Origin: Aureibaculum luteum
Lineage (GTDB): Bacteria > Bacteroidota > Bacteroidia > Flavobacteriales > Flavobacteriaceae
Length of the DNA: 64,000 nucleotides
Reading direction: 5' to 3'
Assembly (NCBI RefSeq): GCF_003449015.1
Contig: NZ_QRGD01000001.1
Location: forward strand, 948,639-1,012,638
Below, piece by piece: positions 2,992-13,768 of the stretch (position 1 is its first letter; every line of letters starts with the position of its first letter). The notes under the pieces are model-generated. The model was not told where the DNA came from. It worked only from the letters and a program-made list of their open reading frames with translations, and searched no databases. The position numbers were made by a program, and so were the translations under genes.

Positions 2992-4491
2992 TTAATGTAG
3001 TGGTAGTTTAATTTCAACTATTGTCCCTTTTGGTTTCTTTTTTTCATCAATTAAATCGTAAAAGGTTATTGAATAATCATTTTTATATTCTTTTGCAAAA
3101 TTACTGAGTCGTTCCTCTGTAAGTTTTATACCAACCGAGGTTGTTTTGTGTATTTTTCGGCTATTTATTTCTGCTGATTTTTTACGTCCTATTCCGTTGT
3201 CCGTTATCGTTATACTTAAATGAAAATCATCGTCTTTATTAACTTTTATTTTCAAAATTTTCTTTTCTTTAATAGATGCTAAACCATGCCAAATTGCGTT
3301 TTCTAAAAAAGGTTGTAAAATAAGTGAAGGTATTTTTATAGTGTCTAGATTTAAGGATTGATCAATGACAACCTCAAACTCAATCTCATTATTAAACCTG
3401 ATATTTTCAATGTTTATATATAATTGCATGGTTTCAATTTCATCAGCGAGTGAAATTTCTTTTTGTTGAGAGGCATTTAATATTTTTCTGATGAGTTTAG
3501 AAAATTTATTAAGATAATAAACTGCATTCTCCTTTTCATTATTAATAATATAGAGTTTGATAGAATTTAAAGAGTTAAAGATAAAATGTGGATTCATTTG
3601 ACTTCGCAAAGAAGTTATTTTTAATTCGGCGAGCTCTTTGTCATATTTTTCTTTTAACTTTTGTATTTTTTCAGTTTTTGCTTGTAGACTTAAAGATGCC
3701 AAATTTTCTTCTAATTGTAAATGTATCGTGTCTTTTAGCTTTTCATTTTCCTGAAGTTGACTTATCAATGTTGCCTGAGATTTATTTTTATCTTCTAATA
3801 TTAATTTTTGTTTATGCCCCAATCCTAGAGAAAATAATATATTTTCCAAAATAACTCCAAAATAAAAAATAGTAAAGCTTAGCTCATTACTTCCTGGTAT
3901 CAAATCAAACATATCAATTAGTGTTGCTCCCATTGACGAAAGAAATAAAAATAGCGAACCAACTATAATGTAGTACCTAAAAGGATTATCCATCTTAAAA
4001 AGCAGCATATAAGCTCTTATGGAAAGGATATTCATGTAAATGAGAAAAAATATATTTCCTTTCGTGATGAATTCGACATTACCTGTTATACGATATAAAA
4101 TTTCGAATCCAATGGTTATAAAAAAAATGATGTAAATTCCTCGAAATATAATGCGATACCATTTTAAGGAAAATGCTTTTAAATCTAAAAAAGTAAAAGC
4201 AAAAATAAAATATAACATGTTATAGGTCCAAACCAAATTAACATCAAGGGCATTTAAAATACCAACAAAAGGCTTGATTAAAATAGAAACAAACCCATCA
4301 GTTGATTCATTTAAGTGACTTAAAAAAATTAAGAAAGTGTACCCACAATAATATAAATAGGACTTGTCTTTGTGTTGAAAATATAATAAGAAATGATAAA
4401 TGGAGAGCATAAATAAAATGCCCAGCACAAAATAGAGTATACCATTTTCATTAGGATACTCAAATATATATTTTATTGATTCTTTATCCAC
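2992..4491 (-). CDS. LytS/YpdA-type sensor histidine kinase with 7TM N-terminus
   Basis: A 499-residue membrane sensor kinase. The N-terminal 230 residues form about seven membrane helices, beginning with GILYFVLGILFMLSIYH, like the 7TMR-DISM membrane module but without a large extracellular sensor domain. A coiled coil spans about 235-295. Next comes the His_kinase domain with SQMNPHFIFNSLNSIK, where His302 is the expected phosphorylated residue, and an ATPase domain with the N-box ENAIWHGL and the G-box DNGIGRKKS. It lies 9 bases downstream of the LytTR regulator gene and forms an operon with it (regulator first). The signal sensed is unknown. Confidence 0.93.
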   Translation of the reverse strand: MDKESIKYIFEYPNENGILYFVLGILFMLSIYHFLLYFQHKDKSYLYYCGYTFLIFLSHLNESTDGFVSILIKPFVGILNALDVNLVWTYNMLYFIFAFTFLDLKAFSLKWYRIIFRGIYIIFFITIGFEILYRITGNVEFITKGNIFFLIYMNILSIRAYMLLFKMDNPFRYYIIVGSLFLFLSSMGATLIDMFDLIPGSNELSFTIFYFGVILENILFSLGLGHKQKLILEDKNKSQATLISQLQENEKLKDTIHLQLEENLASLSLQAKTEKIQKLKEKYDKELAELKITSLRSQMNPHFIFNSLNSIKLYIINNEKENAVYYLNKFSKLIRKILNASQQKEISLADEIETMQLYINIENIRFNNEIEFEVVIDQSLNLDTIKIPSLILQPFLENAIWHGLASIKEKKILKIKVNKDDDFHLSITITDNGIGRKKSAEINSRKIHKTTSVGIKLTEERLSNFAKEYKNDYSITFYDLIDEKKKPKGTIVEIKLPLH

Positions 4492-4500
4492 TTAATAAGA

Positions 4501-5244
4501 CTAAATGGTTAAAACTTTAAGTAATGCATTTTTTTTAGAACGAGAAATTGGAATAGACACCCCGTTTTCTAAAACTAAATATTGTCCATCACTTTTTATA
4601 AATTCTTTAATGAAGTTTATATTTACCAAATAGGAATTATGAACTCTAAAAAAAACGTCATGATTAATTAAAGCCTCTACTTCTTTAATTTTTTTTGACA
4701 GAATTTCTTTTTTACCATCTTTGAAATAAATTTCACAATAATTACCATCAGATTTACAATAAATAATATCATCAATACCCACAAAAATGGTTTTACCTGC
4801 CAATGGTATTTGAATTTTATTGAAACTACTTTTCTGATTAATATTGGCTAATACTTTTTTCAATTCTGTACCTAATAAGTTCCTTTCTTTATTATGCTTA
4901 ATTTTTGCTACGGAATTTAAGAGATCATCAGTATCAATTGGTTTTAACAAATAATCTATAGCACTTTCTTTAAAAGCACGGATTGCATAATTATCAAAAG
5001 CAGTGGTTATTAACAAATCAAACCCTCTATACTTAAGATTGTTAAGCAATTGAAAACCATCCATTTCAGGCATTTCAATATCCAAAAAAACACAATCAGG
5101 TTTAAGGTAATTTATGGCAGAAATAGCCTCTATTGGATCAGTAAATGTTTCGCAAACTTCTATGCCTTTACAAAAATTTTCAATCTCCCATTGTAGGCTT
5201 TTAATAGCACTAAGTTCATCATCTACAATTATAGCTTTTATCAT
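4501..5244 (-). CDS. LytTR family response regulator
   Basis: A 247-residue two-component regulator. The receiver domain (residues 1-115) has acidic residues D8/D9, phospho-acceptor D55 in FLDIEMPEMDG and the conserved Lys in YLLKPI. The LytTR DNA-binding domain (about 140-245) contains YCKSDGNYCEIYF and FFRVHNSYLVNINFIKEF. It is expected to be phosphorylated by the kinase encoded just downstream. LytTR proteins bind direct repeats spaced about two helical turns apart. Three such repeats lie at 5391-5453, between this gene and the divergent DUF4412 gene, so those genes are its likely targets. Confidence 0.94.
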   Translation of the reverse strand: MIKAIIVDDELSAIKSLQWEIENFCKGIEVCETFTDPIEAISAINYLKPDCVFLDIEMPEMDGFQLLNNLKYRGFDLLITTAFDNYAIRAFKESAIDYLLKPIDTDDLLNSVAKIKHNKERNLLGTELKKVLANINQKSSFNKIQIPLAGKTIFVGIDDIIYCKSDGNYCEIYFKDGKKEILSKKIKEVEALINHDVFFRVHNSYLVNINFIKEFIKSDGQYLVLENGVSIPISRSKKNALLKVLTI

Positions 5245-5390
5245 TTGAGGTTGATTTTATGCTTAAATATAATCGACTTTCATTAGTATTTATTTTCAAT
5301 ATACATATTTGGTTCCTTTCAAAGTATAATTGGTACAAAAACCTTCATCAATGGTAAATACCATCATAATTGGCTTGGATTCCGAAATTT

Positions 5391-5453
5391 ACAAAATTAT
5401 ACTCCAATTGCACAAAATTAACTACCCACTGTACAATTTCACTCAATTTTGAT
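5391..5453 (+). promoter_or_regulatory. Three direct repeats at exact 21-bp spacing, candidate LytTR operator
   Basis: ACAAAATTA occurs at 5391-5399 and again at 5412-5420. The related ACAATTTCA follows at 5433-5441. Each unit starts exactly 21 bp after the last, two turns of B-DNA, with 12-bp spacers. This is the geometry known for LytTR regulators such as ComE. The third unit ends 13-25 bp before the -7 box at 5466-5473, the position expected of an activator site. The adjacent divergent gene encodes a LytTR regulator. Binding itself is inferred. Confidence 0.6.
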
Positions 5454-5465
5454 TCTGTCAGTGCA

Positions 5466-5473
5466 TACTTTTG
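5466..5473 (+). promoter_or_regulatory. -7 promoter box TACTTTTG for DUF4412 gene
   Basis: TACTTTTG matches TAnnTTTG and lies 24 bases before the ATG at 5498. The nearest TTTG (5448-5451) is only 14 bp upstream, too close for a normal -33 element. This would suit a promoter that depends on an activator bound at 5391-5453. Confidence 0.6.
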
Positions 5474-5497
5474 AGTTAACAAACAAAAATCATTAAA

Positions 5498-6295
5498 ATG
5501 AAAACAATAAGCCTATTCCTACTCCTTTTTTTAGTTTGTCCCAATATAGAAGCACAATTTCTTAAAAAACTTTCAAAGAAGGTAGAGCAAAAAGTAGAAA
5601 ACACGGTAATAGATAAAACAGCAAATAAAGCAGCTGATAAGGCTTCCAAATCTATGGATAAAGTCTTTGAAATCAATCCATTTGAAGGCGGTAAAGAAAA
5701 ATCAGATCCGAATTTGGTTGCCAATTCTTATGATTTCACTTGGAAATATTCAATGAAAATGTCAACAGAAAAAGGCGATATGACCTTTGACTATTACCTC
5801 AAACCCGATGCAACTTATTTTGGATTTACCTCTGCTACTATGCAAAACATGTTTACGGTTATGGATAACAGTAATAATGTAACCGTAATGTTTATGAAAT
5901 CTAAAGACAATAACATTGGTATGGTAAATTCTTTGAATGTTAATCTAGATTTAGAAGAAGCTAACGAGGAATCTGCAAAATACACTTTTGAACAACTACC
6001 AGATAAAACAATCAATGGATACCATTGCAAAGGGGTAAAAGCTTACAATGATGAGCATGAAATGATCATGTACCTCACAAACGACACAGAAGTGAGCTTT
6101 GACAACATATTTAAAACCGGTAAAACTAAAGTGCCTGTGCAACTTAAGGATTATTTCAAACCCGATGATAAAATTCTCATGATCCGAATGGATATGAAAA
6201 ACTTAAAAAACAAAAAGAAAAATGCAACAATGGAATGTATTGGCCTAGAAAAAGTTTCTAAAACAATTAAAAAATCAGATTATAAATTTATGTAA
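5498..6295 (+). CDS. Secreted DUF4412 domain protein
   Basis: A 265-residue exported protein. The signal peptide ends around NIEAQ (residue 20). It is followed by a Lys/Asp-rich amphipathic stretch (21-55) and then a beta-rich domain (about 65-225) resembling the DUF4412 family of periplasmic or outer-membrane-associated Bacteroidota proteins. The C-terminus is basic. Its function is unknown. It is the first gene of a plus-strand run of envelope proteins and sits directly behind the candidate LytTR operator, so it is the prime candidate target of the neighbouring two-component system. Confidence 0.7.
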   Translation: MKTISLFLLLFLVCPNIEAQFLKKLSKKVEQKVENTVIDKTANKAADKASKSMDKVFEINPFEGGKEKSDPNLVANSYDFTWKYSMKMSTEKGDMTFDYYLKPDATYFGFTSATMQNMFTVMDNSNNVTVMFMKSKDNNIGMVNSLNVNLDLEEANEESAKYTFEQLPDKTINGYHCKGVKAYNDEHEMIMYLTNDTEVSFDNIFKTGKTKVPVQLKDYFKPDDKILMIRMDMKNLKNKKKNATMECIGLEKVSKTIKKSDYKFM

Positions 6296-6318
6296 ACCAC
6301 AAATCATTCCTTTCTCTT

Positions 6319-6411
6319 GTGCAATTGGTTTTAGTATTCATTTCCTGTGCGAATTTTCCAAAAAGAAAAACCAAAAACAAAAGAGGATTATTTATAAAAA
6401 TTGAATCGTAA
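6319..6411 (+). pseudogene. Possible remnant of a lipoprotein leader (GTG start, 30 codons)
   Basis: From a GTG at 6319 this frame reads a hydrophobic stretch, then a lipobox-like VFISC, then a short basic tail to the TAA at 6409. It looks like a lipoprotein signal peptide without a mature domain. There is no ATG and no clear promoter. It could be chance in AT-rich DNA, a decayed gene, or a micro-lipoprotein. The similar fragment at 7835-8092 makes decay in this region more plausible. Confidence 0.2.
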
Positions 6412-6427
6412 CTAAAAATTAATAACT

Positions 6428-6814
6428 ATGAAAAATTTAAAAAAAAGCACACATCAAGCAAAGGGCAATTACTATTTCTTCAATAGAATACTACTTTTAA
6501 CAATTGCCTTTTTTACAACAATTTTAGTATTTACGGCCTGCAGTAAAGATGACATCTTAAATCCAAATGGAAATTGTGGTAATTCTTCTTGGGCACAACA
6601 AGTCGAAAAAGAAATAACAGCTTGGAACAATGCTGCTACTGCATACAGCCAAGACCCAACAACTACAAATTGTAATAATTACAAAAGTGCTGGAAAAAAT
6701 TATTTGGACGCCCTAGAAGGTATTAAAAACTGTGTTCCTGGTGCAAGTACCAACGATTTTAAAAAAGCTATCGAAGATGCTAAAAATGAATTAGACGCAA
6801 TGAATTGTCAATAA
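6428..6814 (+). CDS. Small putative lipoprotein
   Basis: A 128-residue protein with a long N-region, a membrane segment and a lipobox ending at Cys38 (VFTAC), followed by SKDD. The mature part is about 90 residues, Asn/Ala/Lys-rich and mainly helical, with four cysteines (in NGNCGN, TTNCNN, KNCVPG and MNCQ) that could form two disulfides. I recognise no domain. It lies in the run of envelope genes downstream of the LytTR operator, 132 bases after the DUF4412 gene. It is probably attached to a membrane facing the periplasm. Confidence 0.7.
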   Translation: MKNLKKSTHQAKGNYYFFNRILLLTIAFFTTILVFTACSKDDILNPNGNCGNSSWAQQVEKEITAWNNAATAYSQDPTTTNCNNYKSAGKNYLDALEGIKNCVPGASTNDFKKAIEDAKNELDAMNCQ

Positions 6815-6841
6815 AAAACAAAAACTAATAAACAGAACACC

Positions 6842-7189
6842 ATGGACTCTATTGAAAACAAACCAGTAGTTGTGAACGAAGGCAAGAACATAGCAATTAT
6901 TGCCTATATCACTATTATCGGACTAATAATCGCCTTTGTCATGAATGGTGATAAGAAAAATGCTTTTGCAACCTACCACATTAAGCAATCATTGGGTTTG
7001 GCCTTAACGGGCTTTGCATTGGGAATGATTGGAATGATTCCCATTTTAGGATGGATCGTCTCCTTTTTTGGCATTTTTGTTATTATGTTCATGTGGATAA
7101 TGGGATTAATGAATGCCATTAATGGCAATGAAAAGCCAGTACCTCTTTTAGGGGAAAAATATTTAGAATGGCTTAAAAATTTAAAATAA
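6842..7189 (+). CDS. DUF4870 / Tic20-like small membrane protein
   Basis: A 115-residue inner-membrane protein with three hydrophobic segments (about residues 17-37, 50-72, 74-95) and the pattern KKNAFATYHIKQSLGL preceding the second helix, typical of DUF4870 proteins. Some databases label these 'import component' from a distant resemblance to chloroplast Tic20; import activity in bacteria is not shown. It starts 27 bases after the preceding lipoprotein gene and is likely cotranscribed with it. Confidence 0.78.
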   Translation: MDSIENKPVVVNEGKNIAIIAYITIIGLIIAFVMNGDKKNAFATYHIKQSLGLALTGFALGMIGMIPILGWIVSFFGIFVIMFMWIMGLMNAINGNEKPVPLLGEKYLEWLKNLK

Positions 7190-7220
7190 TATACTGATAT
7201 CTATCTTGAAAAAAATATTT

Positions 7221-7811
7221 ATGAAAAACATAAAACATCCTTTAAAGCATATTAAGCATGTATTAACAGTAGGTACTTTTGCACTACTATTTATAAGTAC
7301 TGTTGCTTGCGATAAGGACAACGACCCCAATATCAATAAGACGGCTTTTCAACCTCATTCAGATCAAGGCAATAATTTAGTGTTGACCTATCCTGATGGA
7401 ACTAAAGAATATATAAATGGAGATTCTGTACTTGGTTGGGGTAGTGGTCACTTATTAGGGGGTAATTATTTTAAACAAGTAATGGGTGGTGGATCAGAAA
7501 AAGGCTTTGTAATAAGGATTAATATTCCTCCAAATACCAAAAAAGAAGAAATTATTGGTGCTGAACTAAAGTTAGATGGAGCTAGATTATACCTTCAAAA
7601 CTCCTCAGACATACCGTTACGCCCAGAATTATGGATAAGAGGAGATGGTTTTGATGTTTACGAAAATGCTACAGGTAAGATTAAGATTATTGAAACCGAT
7701 AGTTATGATATTATAGGAGAAGTTAATGCCGAAGTTACAGACATTAACTTCAAATCTGTAAAAATAAGTGGCTTTTTTTGGAAGAAAAAAGCAGATCCAT
7801 ATAGCAATTAG
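7221..7811 (+). CDS. Putative lipoprotein of unknown function
   Basis: The start chosen is the ATG at 7221 rather than the in-frame TTG at 7206. It gives a normal lipoprotein signal with the lipobox ending at Cys30 (STVAC), followed by DKDND. The mature part, about 165 residues, is rich in beta-strand-forming residues and Gly (GWGSGHLLGG, MGGGSEKGF). It has an Asp/Lys-rich middle and ends KKKADPYSN. No family is recognised. It follows the DUF4870 gene by 31 bases in the same run. Confidence 0.7.
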   Translation: MKNIKHPLKHIKHVLTVGTFALLFISTVACDKDNDPNINKTAFQPHSDQGNNLVLTYPDGTKEYINGDSVLGWGSGHLLGGNYFKQVMGGGSEKGFVIRINIPPNTKKEEIIGAELKLDGARLYLQNSSDIPLRPELWIRGDGFDVYENATGKIKIIETDSYDIIGEVNAEVTDINFKSVKISGFFWKKKADPYSN

Positions 7812-7834
7812 AAACGATTTAAAATCATATTAAA

Positions 7835-8092
7835 ATGAGGAATATTCTAATACTTAGGCTCACTGTATTTCTTTTGATTTCTTGTAAAGAATTCGAAAAT
7901 GGAGTGAAATGAAATCTTAACCTCTGGCACTGAACAAGATAAAGATTCTCAAACAGATTCTCAAGCCGCACTTCGATTTCTTTACGACAATAGATTTATG
8001 TAACCATATAAGGCAAAAGAATGGATGTTGATGCTCTTTGGAATGCCTATGGAATTGAAAATTTGAAACGTTTTAAAGAGTATAATAAATAA
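7835..8092 (+). pseudogene. Decayed lipoprotein gene with two frame changes and an internal stop
   Basis: An ATG at 7835 opens a 25-codon leader with a lipobox-like LLISC, ending at a TGA (7910-7912). A frame offset by one base then continues EILTSGTEQDKDSQ... to RFM and a TAA at about 8001. The original frame resumes with MDVDALWNAYGIENLKRFK and ends at the TAA 8090-8092, eight bases before the next gene. The three pieces together look like one small lipoprotein of about 85 residues broken by frameshifts. I cannot name the family. A sequencing error is an alternative, but two independent lesions make decay more likely. Confidence 0.5.
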
Positions 8093-8100
8093 TCTATACA

Positions 8101-8598
8101 ATGGAATTCTTGGCATCACTTAGTCGATCACAAATAGCGGGCATAATCTTACAATTGGCAATAGTACCTTTTTTATTTATGGCATTGCGGCTTTGGTGGT
8201 GGACAAAACAATCTGTTCAATGGCCCAAGGTTAAAGGTGAAGTCGCAAAAAGCCTTGATTTTTCACTTTCAAAGATAATCGATTTTTTATATACGTATGA
8301 AATCAAAGGTATTGCCTACCAAGGAACGAAACCTTTTTTTGCAAATTCTTTTAAAAATTTTAAAAGCAAGAAGACTTCAGAATTAATGGAAAAGTATACC
8401 AAAGGAACACAAGTTGTTGTTTATTATAATCCTTCAAATCATAATATATCAACCTTGGAACCTGGTAGAAAAGATGGTGTAGTTGGTACTTTGGCTATAT
8501 TGATTTCACTGTTTTTGTTAGGGTTTTTAGCGTACAGCTACCCTAATTTAATAACAGAAATCATTGATTACTTTCAACCTTTATTTACTAAATCTTAA
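8101..8598 (+). CDS. DUF3592 domain membrane protein
   Basis: A 165-residue protein with an N-terminal membrane helix (about residues 13-32) and a C-terminal one (about 127-146). Between them is a beta-rich loop with WPKVKGEV, YTYEIKGIAYQG and VVVYYNPSNHNISTLEPG, the hallmark pattern of DUF3592. The loop probably faces the periplasm. The function is unknown. It follows the decayed lipoprotein and precedes the beta-helix gene by 11 bases. Confidence 0.82.
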   Translation: MEFLASLSRSQIAGIILQLAIVPFLFMALRLWWWTKQSVQWPKVKGEVAKSLDFSLSKIIDFLYTYEIKGIAYQGTKPFFANSFKNFKSKKTSELMEKYTKGTQVVVYYNPSNHNISTLEPGRKDGVVGTLAILISLFLLGFLAYSYPNLITEIIDYFQPLFTKS

Positions 8599-8609
8599 AT
8601 TCAAATAGC

Positions 8610-11456
8610 ATGAAAAAAGCATTACTTCTACTCACGATTTTATGTACCTCGTTAATAACGTATTCGCAAACTACTTATACAGTGAATACTATAGATGATT
8701 TCCTAGATGTAAATTTAAACGATGCTATTTGTGCTGATAAAAACGGGAATTGCACTTTTAGAGCGGCTCTTCAAAATGCAAATAAAACAAGTAATAAGGA
8801 TATTGTTAACTTTAATATTTCAGGCTCTGCACCTTTTACAATTGCAATAACCGAAGATATTCTGCCAGACATATTACAACCTGTAATAATAGATGGCCGT
8901 ACGCAACCACAATATACCATCAATCATACACCTGTTATAGAAATATCTAATACTTTTCTGCAATACTCAAATGGCATTAAGCTCATTGGAAACTCTTCAG
9001 GGAGTGAATTATATGGCCTTTGTGTCGTTAATTTTGCAAGAATGACGCAATACCCATACAGTTTTGGTTATGGAATAATTAGCAGTACAGCAAATCATAT
9101 TATACAATCTAATTATATAGGTTTAAGGGCAGATGGCAAAACCGTTGGTGGCAATACAGGAGGAGGATTGTCTTTAGGGTATCTTGGCGGACATCTGGTA
9201 GGAGGAACACAACCCTTTCAAGGAAATGTTATTTCGGGCAATCCTTCCTTTGGGCTAAATATTTCAGGCTCATCATTAAATTCATTTCAATCATCCAATA
9301 ACATAATTCAGGGGAATTTAATCGGTACAGATGCTACCGGCACTTTGAACAGAGGTAATAAATTCAACGTTCAGATAGTTGATTCGTATAATAATACTTT
9401 AGGTGGTCACACTCCACAAGCTCGAAATGTTATTTCTGGAGCAAATGCAACTGACGACGCCACAGTTGGAACTGGCATAGCGATTAGCGGAACACAGTCT
9501 TATAACAATGCAATTATAGGGAATTATATTGGTACAGATATCACAGGAACAAAATCCATACCTAATGCCAGAGGAGGTGTTTTAATTTTATTTGGAGCTA
9601 ATACTAATCGAATTGGAACAGATGGTTCCGGAGAAGGAAATATAATATCTGGAAATGGACAATATGGGGTCTATCTTCAAGGAGGTACAACAGATCCTGT
9701 AATTTCAAACCTTATCAGAGGAAATTATATAGGTGTTGATGCTACTGGAAATGTAGCATTGCCAAACTCAATAGGTATCATGATGCTTACGGGAGAAAAT
9801 AATAATAATATTATTGGTGGAACAACTGCTAATTCAAAAAATGTTATTTCAGGAAACGCAAGTGATGGAATTACTATTCTTAGCGGCAAGAACAACCAAA
9901 TTATTGGAAATTATATTGGCACAAATGCTCTAGGCACACTTGCCATACCTAATTATACAGGTATTTATTTAGAAGACAGTAATAATAGTATTGGAGGACA
10001 AGCAGCAGGTAATAGAAATATTATATCTGGAAATTCTATAGGAATTGAAATTTCAGAAAGTACATCGAGTGGATCTTCGATAATAGGCAATTATATTGGT
10101 TTGAATGCTTCTGGCAATAGAGCATTGCCAAACGCAACAGGAATATCATTACATTCTTCATCAACAAATAGTACCATTGGAGGTGCAAATCCTTTAGATA
10201 AAAACATAATTTCAGGGAACAGTAACATTGGGATATTTGTTTCGGGTACATCGCACAACATTCAAAATAATTATATAGGATTGAATTCTGATGGCAATGG
10301 AATTATTAAGAATGGAAATGAAGGATTAAGACTTAATGGAACTTTAACCAATACTAAAGTTTCAGAAAACACAATATCAGGGAATGGTACAACATCAAAC
10401 ACCTCTAAAAACGTCTATTTTAATTCCGCAAATGAAGTTCATTTTTTCAGAAATAAAGTAGGTACGTTACCTGATGGCAATTCATTACTCACAAATATCG
10501 GTGTTGGTTTAACAATGAACAATTCAAACAATAATAGTATTGGAGGTACTACAGTTGCCGAAGGAAATATTATAGGAAATCATAATCTGAATGGTATATT
10601 ATTGATTTCTAATTCCAACAATAATACTTTTAGTAATAACAATATTGGTGTGGGTTCAGATGGTTCAACTAATATTGGAAATTCAATAAATGGAATTGTT
10701 ATCACAGGAAATAATACCAAGAACAAAGTTAGCAATAATACAATTACCAATAATCAAAATGGTGTTATTATAAGTACAACTTCTGGCGTACCGACCCAAG
10801 TTACTATTTCTAAAAATAGCATTTATAATAATTCAGTTTTAGGAATCGATTTGGAAGGTACCGCTTCAAATGACGTTAACGATGCTGATACTGGTGCAAA
10901 TATACTTCAAAATTCTCCCGAAATAAGTGCAATAAATTATTTAGGCAACGTGAGTGTTGAAGTCACTTACAATGTGCCAAGTGCGGTAACCAATTCCGCT
11001 TATCCGATTACTGTTGAGTTTTTCGGTGCAGATAATGGTCAAGGTAAGAAATATATTAGTACAGATATTTATACACTACCTGGAGCCAAAACTGTAACCT
11101 TGAGCCTTCCCAATGGTTTTGAACAGAACGATTACAACAATATTGTTGGTACTGCAACCGATGAAAACGGAAATACTTCAGAGTTTGGAACCTCAGTCAA
11201 CTATTCATTGGGGATTTCAAAGTTTGAAAATAATACTGCTAAAATATTCCCAAACCCAACGCGAGATCTCTTAACTATTCAATCTAATTTCAATGAAACA
11301 CTTACAATTGAAGTATTTGACGTTTATGGGAAAAATGTAATGAATCAAAAAATGATAAATACAATGAATGTTTCTTCTTTAGCCTCAGGTGTTTATTTAT
11401 TAAAAATAAAAGATGAAAATGGAGGCATTAAATCAGCAAAAATGATAAAACAATAA
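8610..11456 (+). CDS. Large secreted parallel beta-helix protein with T9SS type A sorting domain
   Basis: A 948-residue exported protein. It has a signal peptide (residues 1-19, ending around TYSQ) and a CSLREA-like opening with NGNCTFRAALQNAN (about 43-61). A long repetitive region (about 100-750) follows, in which units such as NVISGN, GNYIGTDATGT and NNIGG recur every 55-65 residues, typical of right-handed beta-helix proteins. Next comes a beta-sandwich-like segment (about 770-865). The C-terminus carries IFPNPTRDLLTIQ and SSLASGVYLLKIKD, the type A sorting domain that directs cargo through the type IX secretion system to the cell surface. It may act as an adhesin or polysaccharide-binding protein; no catalytic motif is seen. 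Confidence 0.88.
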   Translation: MKKALLLLTILCTSLITYSQTTYTVNTIDDFLDVNLNDAICADKNGNCTFRAALQNANKTSNKDIVNFNISGSAPFTIAITEDILPDILQPVIIDGRTQPQYTINHTPVIEISNTFLQYSNGIKLIGNSSGSELYGLCVVNFARMTQYPYSFGYGIISSTANHIIQSNYIGLRADGKTVGGNTGGGLSLGYLGGHLVGGTQPFQGNVISGNPSFGLNISGSSLNSFQSSNNIIQGNLIGTDATGTLNRGNKFNVQIVDSYNNTLGGHTPQARNVISGANATDDATVGTGIAISGTQSYNNAIIGNYIGTDITGTKSIPNARGGVLILFGANTNRIGTDGSGEGNIISGNGQYGVYLQGGTTDPVISNLIRGNYIGVDATGNVALPNSIGIMMLTGENNNNIIGGTTANSKNVISGNASDGITILSGKNNQIIGNYIGTNALGTLAIPNYTGIYLEDSNNSIGGQAAGNRNIISGNSIGIEISESTSSGSSIIGNYIGLNASGNRALPNATGISLHSSSTNSTIGGANPLDKNIISGNSNIGIFVSGTSHNIQNNYIGLNSDGNGIIKNGNEGLRLNGTLTNTKVSENTISGNGTTSNTSKNVYFNSANEVHFFRNKVGTLPDGNSLLTNIGVGLTMNNSNNNSIGGTTVAEGNIIGNHNLNGILLISNSNNNTFSNNNIGVGSDGSTNIGNSINGIVITGNNTKNKVSNNTITNNQNGVIISTTSGVPTQVTISKNSIYNNSVLGIDLEGTASNDVNDADTGANILQNSPEISAINYLGNVSVEVTYNVPSAVTNSAYPITVEFFGADNGQGKKYISTDIYTLPGAKTVTLSLPNGFEQNDYNNIVGTATDENGNTSEFGTSVNYSLGISKFENNTAKIFPNPTRDLLTIQSNFNETLTIEVFDVYGKNVMNQKMINTMNVSSLASGVYLLKIKDENGGIKSAKMIKQ

Positions 11457-11467
11457 ATCCTAATATC

Positions 11468-12391
11468 ATGTACAAAATACTATTTATTCTAATGTTATTA
11501 TCAATTCAAGTAATTTATGGTCAAACACCCGAAGAGCAAAAATTGATCGATAAGTCTCTAAAATCACTCGACAGTATTATGAACACCCCAGAAATGAAAG
11601 CCATGGAGAAGCTTACGGAAGCCAGAGAAAAAAAACAGAAATCAAATACTGAACCAGAGAAAAAAAACACCCCTAAAGTTAAACCCAAATTTGATAAATA
11701 CTGGGTAAATACACTTTCCAGCAATAATGATATGAAACTTAAAGGCTGGAACAATGGAGTAGCCGATCTTGGTTTTAACTATAATTATGATTCAAGAAAA
11801 GATAAAGTGGAATATGTTAAAGTTGGGAATATTAAAGCAGACGGAACAATTATATTGAATCCAAAACATGAAATTCCTGTTTTGAAACCCTTAAACAACT
11901 TTAAAAACAGCAATGTTTTTTATGATATTCACAATCCAGATTCTTATCAATACACAAATGAAAATACCGGTTTTAAACTGAATTCTTATGTATTAGTATA
12001 TCAAAACGAACAAAAAATTGGTGTTTTAACGGTTGGAAATTCTGCAAAAGTTACCCGAAATCTATTAACACCAGGAGATTTGTATTTTGGTGATGAAGGG
12101 TATATGCTATCATGGGTTTATGTTGAAGAGGCTTGTGCAATAAGGGCTAATGAAAATTGGAAAGGAGATTTGGGTAATACAGGTACTCCATTAATTGTTG
12201 AAACCAATGTTGTTTATAATCTAAGTTTTAAGCCAGGCTGGAATTTGATTAAAACCGAGATTATCGGGGCATATCAATTTCCAAATGCTCCAGAAGAAGA
12301 TAGGTCTCGTTATAAAAAACATGAACATACTATAATTACTAAAATACCTAATGATGCGACCTATTTCTTTAGGTCAGCGGAACACTACTAA
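11468..12391 (+). CDS. Secreted protein of unknown function
   Basis: A 307-residue exported protein. The signal peptide ends near VIYGQ (residue 19). A charged, coiled-coil-prone stretch rich in Glu/Lys follows (21-75). The beta-rich C-terminal part has aromatic motifs such as YMLSWVYVEEACAIRANENW and FKPGWNLIKTEIIGAY. The latter recurs in Bacteroidota hypothetical proteins, but I know no function. It follows the beta-helix gene by 11 bases and is almost certainly cotranscribed with it, so it may be an accessory or partner of that surface protein. Confidence 0.65.
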   Translation: MYKILFILMLLSIQVIYGQTPEEQKLIDKSLKSLDSIMNTPEMKAMEKLTEAREKKQKSNTEPEKKNTPKVKPKFDKYWVNTLSSNNDMKLKGWNNGVADLGFNYNYDSRKDKVEYVKVGNIKADGTIILNPKHEIPVLKPLNNFKNSNVFYDIHNPDSYQYTNENTGFKLNSYVLVYQNEQKIGVLTVGNSAKVTRNLLTPGDLYFGDEGYMLSWVYVEEACAIRANENWKGDLGNTGTPLIVETNVVYNLSFKPGWNLIKTEIIGAYQFPNAPEEDRSRYKKHEHTIITKIPNDATYFFRSAEHY

Positions 12392-12411
12392 AATTTTTAA
12401 ATAGACATAAA

Positions 12412-12972
12412 ATGAAAGTTACAAGAATCAATTTATTAATCGTATGGATTGCATTACTCACATTAAGTTGCAACAAAAAAGAAAATAAAAGTGAAGAATC
12501 TACACGTTTGAATTCAGAAAAAGTTGTTGCAATAAATTCACCTTACGAGCTCATTTCAAGGGAAGATGTTAAAAATATTTTTAATGTAGTGGAATTTCCA
12601 ATTGACGTACAGGATAAGGTTTTGACGCAACCTACCTGCATCTATAAATGGGAAGACAGTAAAGTTTTTAGAATGAAAAAAATTGTTAATCAAGAAGTAA
12701 AGTTCGCAATGCCTAGTGAAGTGCTTATTGTAATGGTAAAAAAGTGTACAGAAAGTATGTTTAAAAGATCTACTTCGGTCTATAAACAACCACATTTAAT
12801 TGAAAACTTAGGTGATATGGCTGTTTGGGATGTGAGGATGTCTCAAATGACTTTTCTTTCAAATCACTTTATATTTCATGTCCATGTTAAAGTTTCTAAC
12901 GAAAATCAAATCAATCTGAAAAAGGCCACGGAAGTTTCTAATTTAATAATTGAAAAACTTAGTGCCTTTTGA
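12412..12972 (+). CDS. Putative lipoprotein of unknown function
   Basis: A 186-residue protein with a lipoprotein signal and lipobox LTLSC (Cys20). The mature domain contains PYELISREDVKNIF and TCIYKWEDSK, a pattern seen in small periplasmic lipoproteins that compare a measured value with a buffer; no named family can be assigned safely. It is the last gene of the 5.5-13 kb run, 20 bases after the previous gene. The 283-base region after it contains no gene and holds the next promoter. Confidence 0.65.
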   Translation: MKVTRINLLIVWIALLTLSCNKKENKSEESTRLNSEKVVAINSPYELISREDVKNIFNVVEFPIDVQDKVLTQPTCIYKWEDSKVFRMKKIVNQEVKFAMPSEVLIVMVKKCTESMFKRSTSVYKQPHLIENLGDMAVWDVRMSQMTFLSNHFIFHVHVKVSNENQINLKKATEVSNLIIEKLSAF

Positions 12973-13200: not shown

Positions 13201-13228
13201 TTGTTACTTTGGTAAATTTATATATTTG
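13201..13228 (+). promoter_or_regulatory. Complete Bacteroidota promoter TTG-N17-TATATTTG
   Basis: A -33 TTG (13201-13203), a 17-base spacer and the -7 box TATATTTG (13221-13228), a full match to the TTG / TAnnTTTG consensus. It lies 28 bases before the ATG at 13256. This is the best promoter in the window. Confidence 0.75.
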
Positions 13229-13255
13229 CAGTACAAAACAGAAAAATTCTAAACT

Positions 13256-13768
13256 ATGAAAATTATTAAAAAGTTAGTTCTTACAATAGCCTTAATTGGC
13301 GGTATTAGTTCAATGAATGCACAAGTATCCGCTGGTGGTGGTGTTGCTTATAATGAAGGTATAGATGCCCCAGGTCTCTTCGCAAAAGTTGAATTTGAGA
13401 TTATGGAAAATATTGCCATTTCTCCGAGTGTATCTTATTTTTCAGGAAGTCAAGCAAAAATAGTAGGTAATTCTTACAAAAATAATCTGTTTGCTGTTGA
13501 TGTTAACGGACATTATAAAATTGAGGTAATGATGGACGAGTTAGATGTATATCCTTTGGCTGGTTTAAACTATTCTAGTTATAAAAATGGGATCGAAACT
13601 TTAAACGAAGGCTACGGTCAAAACAGTGGTAATGCATTAGGTTTGAACATCGGTGGTGGTGGTAGATGGAAATTCGCAGATCAACTCAGTGTATTTGCAG
13701 AATTGAAATATACGGTAAGTAGTTTAAGCCAAGTAGTTTTAGGTGCTGGAGTTTTATATGAATTTTAA
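13256..13768 (+). CDS. OmpX-like outer-membrane beta-barrel protein
   Basis: A 170-residue exported protein with a signal peptide ending at SSMNAQ (residue 23). The mature part is about 147 residues with alternating Gly/aromatic strands (GGGVAYNEG, SPSVSYFSG, GLNYSSYKNG, LNIGGGGRWKF, AELKYTVSS), ending in the aromatic YEF. The size and pattern fit an eight-stranded outer-membrane barrel of the OmpX/OmpA-like group. It is monocistronic, with a strong promoter at 13201-13228 and a strong terminator at 13792-13825. It is probably a well-expressed structural membrane protein. Confidence 0.82.
   Translation: MKIIKKLVLTIALIGGISSMNAQVSAGGGVAYNEGIDAPGLFAKVEFEIMENIAISPSVSYFSGSQAKIVGNSYKNNLFAVDVNGHYKIEVMMDELDVYPLAGLNYSSYKNGIETLNEGYGQNSGNALGLNIGGGGRWKFADQLSVFAELKYTVSSLSQVVLGAGVLYEF

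Follow-up and report, generated by a model that had tools for sequence, protein, structure and literature searches.

The 253 bp gap at 5245-5497 of the window (the whole 64-kb stretch of DNA that was analysed, which is part of the 5.1 Mb genome G000) parts a minus-strand regulator and kinase gene pair from eight genes that run along the plus strand (5498-12972), and it carries a conserved operator region of the LytTR type that is probably autoregulated. The repeats, their spacing, their fixed distance from promoter boxes, their conservation and their co-occurrence with the regulator can be seen directly in the DNA. On these sequence grounds we consider it very probable that the locus is an autoregulated LytTR two-component switch that would activate the divergent run from 5498. 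For one LytTR regulator of the Flavobacteriaceae the region thus offers a concrete grammar of operator and promoter, and such a switch would tie the DUF4412 family of exported proteins to one sensor system.

A LytTR regulator and kinase lie opposite a run of eight genes

The minus-strand gene at 4501-5244 encodes a LytTR response regulator of 247 aa, in which both the Response_reg and the LytTR domain score above the Pfam cut-off. It is accompanied by a minus-strand gene at 2992-4491 that encodes a 499 aa sensor of the 7TMR-DISM / His_kinase type, with a PF06580 score of 77.1 bits against a Pfam cut-off of 25.2. The pair has the composition of a LytTR two-component system, namely a receiver and LytTR regulator with a His_kinase-family partner, and its presence bears out the claim of an earlier reading of this DNA (the original prediction) that a LytTR gene lies on the other side of the repeats.

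The products of the plus-strand run look exported or membrane-bound, with leaders and membrane segments assigned by eye. Target 1 (5498-6295) is a secreted DUF4412 protein of 265 aa. The others comprise three putative lipoproteins (target 2, 6428-6814, which has no family; target 4, 7224-7811; and target 8, 12412-12972, the probable end of the run), two putative membrane proteins (target 3, 6842-7189, with a weak DUF4870 match below the cut-off, and target 5, 8101-8598, a DUF3592 protein), one T9SS-exported protein with a Por_Secre_tail (target 6, 8610-11456) and one other putative secreted protein, again with no family (target 7, 11468-12391). For target 4 the ATG at 7224 is preferred as the start, the open reading frame as listed beginning with TTG at 7206. 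When the DUF4412 protein was modelled alone the pLDDT was 35.9, which is too low for use; a PDB sequence search with it returned two matches (E 0.08), and no paper on the family was found in the open literature searched.

A single transcript spanning 5498-12972 is plausible. A scan for terminator-like sites detected none on the plus strand from 5473 to 12972, which is weak evidence because it gave three sites in all against 4.4 in shuffles. The inner strict -7 boxes (TAnnTTTG) at 7274 and 9029 lie within genes and have no TTG, and the next strict box, which a TTG precedes at 17 bases, lies at 13221, ahead of the next gene. The stretch 13221-13768, after the run, encodes a 170 aa protein of putative outer-membrane type (judged by eye), and this gene probably forms a unit of its own, since it has its own strict -7 box preceded by a TTG at 17 bases. 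Within the run the gap at 7812-8100, between targets 4 and 5, is long; by eye, it holds coding-like debris and a short open reading frame resembling a lipoprotein leader, and may be what is left of a lost gene.

Two inverted arrays of three half-sites occupy the gap

It can be seen that ACAAAATTA begins at 5391 and again at 5412, and ACAATTTCA at 5433, with a step of 21 bp. These positions and steps are as originally predicted; the proposed repeat unit, in contrast, is shifted by 9 bases, its ACA being the right end of the half-site only. Comparison with 43 relatives gave ACCATTTATACA as the half-site consensus, and the columns common to the relatives are those of the series beginning at 5382, 5403 and 5424, ACAAAATTA consisting of the last three half-site bases plus spacer. 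On the plus strand, half-site 1 (CCGAAATTTACA, 5382-5393) is placed 21 bp before half-site 2 (TCCAATTGCACA, 5403-5414), and half-site 3 (ACCCACTGTACA, 5424-5435) lies 30 bases before the -7 box of the target promoter.

The 64-kb window contains two evenly spaced triples, the 5391/5412/5433 set being one of them, when a triple is taken as two exact 9-mers with at least three letters and a third agreeing at 6 or more of 9 positions, at a step of 10-59; exact 9-mer pairs at the same steps number 60. The best target-side pair of the window has 8 mismatches from the consensus and by itself gave p = 0.12 against shuffles, and our case therefore depends on the conservation, the fixed distance and the co-occurrence.

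On the minus strand, 5302-5355 is covered by a second operator, again of three half-sites but inverted, which points to the regulator gene. Its half-sites are ACCATTGATGAA (5344-5355), ACCAATTATACT (5323-5334) and ACCAAATATGTA (5302-5313), the last of which lies 30 bases before the -7 box of the regulator promoter. The regulator-side pair was matched by none of 100 shuffles, and 26 bp separate the two arrays. Having missed this half of the control region as well as shifting the repeat unit, the original prediction is partly supported, its reading being right in kind.

The arrays are conserved in relatives

For comparison, 44 regions upstream of the regulator were assembled, 19 of them closer (56-100% identity, the window included) and 25 more distant (46-53%). 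Left out were L037 and L064, whose upstream DNA is that of L062 and L154, respectively, L044-L061, which are further matches and for the most part other paralogues, and the greater part of the 123 family matches (30 loci given). Among these sequences, which are kin and not independent of one another, motif-free self-similarity peaked at step 21 in both the 19 closer regions (z 4.8) and the 25 distant ones (z 9.5), with step 42 second-highest in the closer set. The distant set shows ACCATTTATACA plainly, and L158 and L165 carry two mismatch-free copies of it.

Because the consensus was taken from the same regions, the counts of adjacent sites are partly circular and are offered as description, not as an independent test: consensus-like pairs at step 21 (up to 4 mismatches per half-site) were present on the target side in 9/19 closer and 19/25 distant regions and on the regulator side in 10/19 and 18/25, and with 100 shuffles for each side p was 0.05 or lower in 62 of the 88 sides (closer-target 9/19, closer-regulator 17/19, distant-target 20/25, distant-regulator 16/25) and above 0.05 in the other 26. 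The nearest relative, which has an identical regulator, differs from the window at 2 of 72 half-site positions, 0 of 16 box positions and 21 of 165 other positions (p = 0.005); it is altered at 5418, which falls in the spacer within the second ACAAAATTA copy.

The arrays stand at a fixed distance from -7 boxes that lack a -33 element

The -33 element is a TTG found 17-23 bases upstream of the -7 box. No TTG is present 17-23 bases before the target-promoter box, TACTTTTG at 5466-5473 on the plus strand, and the predicted -7 box without a -33 element was thus confirmed. The regulator-promoter box, TATATTTA at 5264-5271 on the minus strand, is not a full TAnnTTTG. Each array of the window stops exactly 30 bases ahead of its box. 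If the -7 box is placed at -12 to -5, as in the accessible part of PMC9723704, transcription would start near 5478 and near 5259, giving leaders of 20 and 15 bases, respectively.

Across the 44 regions, the best pair on each side was picked blind to promoters, and 78 of the 88 sides were scored, the 10 with more than 9 mismatches being omitted. Strict TAnnTTTG boxes were found 32 times at offsets of 29, 30, 50 and 51 bases on these 78 sides, against once at the other 77 offsets; offsets 50-51 equal 29-30 plus one further half-site. Broken down by group, strict boxes were found on 9/16 closer-target, 6/19 closer-regulator, 2/23 distant-target and 15/20 distant-regulator sides. When the box was relaxed, 60 of the 78 sides had one at the four offsets (11/16, 17/19, 12/23 and 20/20 in the same group order), the remaining 18 having none at these distances, and the other 77 offsets gave 36. 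With 60/78 sides so arranged, the operator has a fixed place relative to the core promoter, as expected of a LytTR operator. A -33 element has not been selected, since a TTG lay 17-23 bases upstream in 10 of the 60 sides, compared with 9.0 expected from shuffles.

The operator looks local in its own genome

A genome search for the spaced repeat pair had been proposed as a check on the original prediction. The exact pair was found once, and with up to 2 mismatches there were 9 matches against 20 for a reversed control; this pattern by itself therefore gives no sign of a wider regulon. When the own genome was searched with the IUPAC pair (up to 3 mismatches), 28 matches were obtained against 20 for the control; the only ones with fewer than 3 mismatches were the two overlapping target-side pairs of the window, and its regulator-side pair was among the 3-mismatch matches.

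The own genome has 23 LytTR matches. Testing the other 22 loci with the strict box at 29-30 bases only, we found no operator and box as good as those of the window (8 mismatches). Five of the 22 reached p of 0.05 or lower, with 10-11 mismatches, where one would be expected, and weaker kin sites are therefore possible. A motif-free test of 12 other LytTR upstream regions showed no peak at step 21 (z -0.19); 10 of the 23 loci had been omitted from this test as they failed the start-codon rule, and L015 is the window's own locus. Taken with the conservation of step 21 and the box distance, these own-genome searches agree with the original proposal that a LytTR-type direct-repeat operator goes with this regulator, which we regard as probable. 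The accompanying idea of a self-contained circuit holds in that the system looks local in its own genome; it had overlooked the second, inverted operator, and remote sites are found in relatives.

Sites and regulator occur together across the Flavobacteriaceae

A search of 299 Flavobacteriaceae genomes with the consensus pair, in which up to 3 mismatches were allowed, gave 75 sites in 55 genomes, against 11 control matches. The regulator (E 1e-60 or better) was present in 53 of the 55 site-bearing genomes compared with 114 of the 299 overall, and 40 of the 75 sites lay upstream of it at no more than 500 bp; of these 40, 37 faced the divergent gene. As the consensus was derived partly from regulator-adjacent loci, the 35 remote sites, which were not used for it, are the fairer test. 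The regulator was found in 29 of the 31 genomes with remote sites, giving p 1e-11 against all 299 genomes and p = 0.03 against the control-match genomes, 7/11 of which have the regulator.

We inspected 34 of the 35 remote sites, the L263 site being masked by a better adjacent site. A relaxed -7 box was located at 29, 30, 50 or 51 bases from 19 of the 34, and two sites were within a long open reading frame, in a test made on part of the 34. The remote sites of L200, L206 and L262 precede a gene for a protein of 444-447 aa; the L200 and L206 proteins match target 1 over 58-60 N-terminal residues only, outside the DUF4412 stretch, and the L262 protein gave no match to target 1. Many remote sites are without a clear target, and, with control matches obtained in the same search, some may be due to chance.

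The geometry resembles that of known LytTR operators

LytTR sites are described in the accessible part of PMC4847170 as two repeats of 9-11 bases that are 11-13 bases apart, and the present step of 21, made up of a 9-base core and 12 bases, has this spacing. In the accessible part of PMC6193735, the Streptococcus mutans HdrRM and BrsRM systems have ACCNNTTAT-like repeats mostly 12 bp apart (a 21-bp step), upstream of the regulator's own promoter, both as here. The LRS tables of that paper, as far as accessible, give ACCACTTAT-12 bp-ACCGCTTAT, mostly 10 bp from the -35, and the ACCATTTAT part of our half-site resembles these repeats. Of the 20 rows shown of Table 3 (PMC6193735), 17 give a distance from repeat to -10 of 32 or 33 bases when the listed lengths are summed, and the remaining three give 34. 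In the present region 32-33 bases separate the end of the 9-base core from the -7 box, as in those 17 rows, and so the geometry is the known one, minus the -33 element.

The HdrRM and BrsRM regulators have a membrane partner and are set apart from two-component systems in the same source, whereas the present regulator has a receiver domain and a kinase; for this reason we do not assign it to the LytTR Regulatory System (LRS, PMC6193735). The region also differs from the operators described there in its second, divergent operator, in having three half-sites and in lacking a -35/-33 element. In the two Bacteroides entries in the accessible part of PMC6193735, repeats of 11 bases stand 11 bp apart and precede TATCTTTG.

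The Escherichia coli LytS/LytTR two-component systems BtsSR and YpdAB have a receiver-LytTR regulator, as here, and differ in the kinase, which here is of the 7TMR-DISM type. BtsR is the nearest NCBIfam full-length model to the regulator (E 2.3e-39); at 135.2 bits against a cut-off of 246, the regulator is not a BtsR equivalog. YpdB binds a direct repeat of GGCATTTCAT (PMC4847170, accessible part). Flavobacterial sigma-A promoters share their TAnnTTTG -7 box (PMC9723704, accessible part) with this region, but the -33 element is not seen here and a LytTR array lies upstream of its place. No worked-out binding site for LytTR regulators of the Flavobacteriaceae was found in the open literature searched; Flavobacterium LytTR regulators are mentioned in PMC5395568 and PMC10197871, and no binding site was found in the accessible parts of these two papers or of PMC3875573. 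Likewise, these searches turned up no description of the present system.

A switch that activates both promoters is the favoured explanation

In the mechanism that we favour, the 7TMR-DISM kinase would sense a signal, and the phosphorylated LytTR regulator would bind direct half-sites of the consensus at 21-bp spacing, in the array of three directed at the target run and in the inverted array of three directed at the regulator and kinase genes. As each array stops 30 bases short of a sigma-A -7 box that has no -33 element, the bound regulator would replace the -33 contact and recruit RNA polymerase, raising expression of the exported-protein run from the DUF4412 gene on together with the level of the regulator itself. 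Binding, phosphorylation, activation, the signal and the extent of the operon are all features that we infer from the arrangement of the DNA.

A potential explanation that would retain LytTR binding at the arrays is that the regulator acts mainly as a repressor or as a DNA-bending switch. LytTR proteins of both signs exist, the abstract of PMC2714321 describing activation by PlnC and repression by PlnD through the same repeats, and two arrays lying 26 bp apart could interact. However, the constant position of the arrays, 29-30 bases upstream of the core promoter, and the lack of selection for a -33 element fit activation, and in the window the arrays are clear of the -7 boxes. We therefore think mainly repression or bending unlikely, and a pure repressor role was set aside.

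It is considerably less probable that the operator belongs to some other DNA-binding protein and that the LytTR gene is merely its neighbour. The regulator is encoded in 29/31 remote-site genomes, and ACCATTTAT in the half-site is similar to published LytTR repeats; set against this are the 7/11 control-match genomes that also carry the regulator, the 12-base length of the half-site compared with the 9-11 usual for LytTR sites (PMC4847170, accessible part), and the fact that the operator is assigned to the regulator by sequence. Conservation of the step, the distance and the substitution pattern in relatives led us to set aside chance A+T-rich repeats, which we find scarcely credible even though the ACAAAATTA-type 9-mer pair is without genome-wide excess and 60 exact 9-mer pairs exist in the window.

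Targets vary between lineages

Extending the activating switch to the whole family is possible, but we hold this wider reading with less than even confidence. It proposes that a LytTR regulon extends across the Flavobacteriaceae and has a promoter grammar of its own, in which two inverted 21-bp arrays (of three half-sites each in the window's lineage) would replace the missing -33 at 29-30 bases from the -7 box of both divergent promoters, and would thereby couple autoactivation to exported proteins. These would include DUF4412 proteins and longer proteins with the N-terminal segment of the latter, and some of their genes keep operator-like pairs even at a distance from the regulator.

All 15 loci of relatives that were examined have a kinase match downstream of the regulator, which in L239 extends over just 218 aa; nine of the 15 have a match to target 1, in two cases limited to 51 and 58 aa. 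L296, with a regulator of 49% identity, has the gene order of the window's surroundings (DUF3109, kinase, regulator, DUF4412 gene, NrdB, NrdA), and an operator-like pair with 6 mismatches precedes its DUF4412 gene. In L298 the DUF4412 gene lies in a DUF3109-MarC-CtpA neighbourhood with the regulator on a different contig, and an operator-like pair is located 82 bp before the gene, with none of 100 shuffles as good. Operator-like pairs at p 0.02 or better were found for 7 of 29 DUF4412 homologues and not for the other 22, and none of the 7 had a relaxed -7 box at the expected distance. The own genome encodes a second DUF4412-type protein (G000:C7:7163-7975, L295), which shares 37% identity with target 1. 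Its gene lacks a convincing operator, and a further partial match lies upstream of it.

In L153, L155-L157, L159-L160, L162-L165 and L167-L169 a peptide of 40-70 aa of the M(K/R)KC type replaces DUF4412 as first target in the divergent slot. The short peptides in this slot have a similar M(K/R)KC-type hydrophobic start and are found in many distant relatives. The content of the regulon is only partly constant, and its targets vary between lineages. The sensor side also varies: at L229 (3-4356), L230 (1-4155) and L232 (12864-15870), two or three tandem kinases of the 7TMR-DISM type adjoin a single LytTR regulator, which suggests that in these relatives several sensors feed one regulator.
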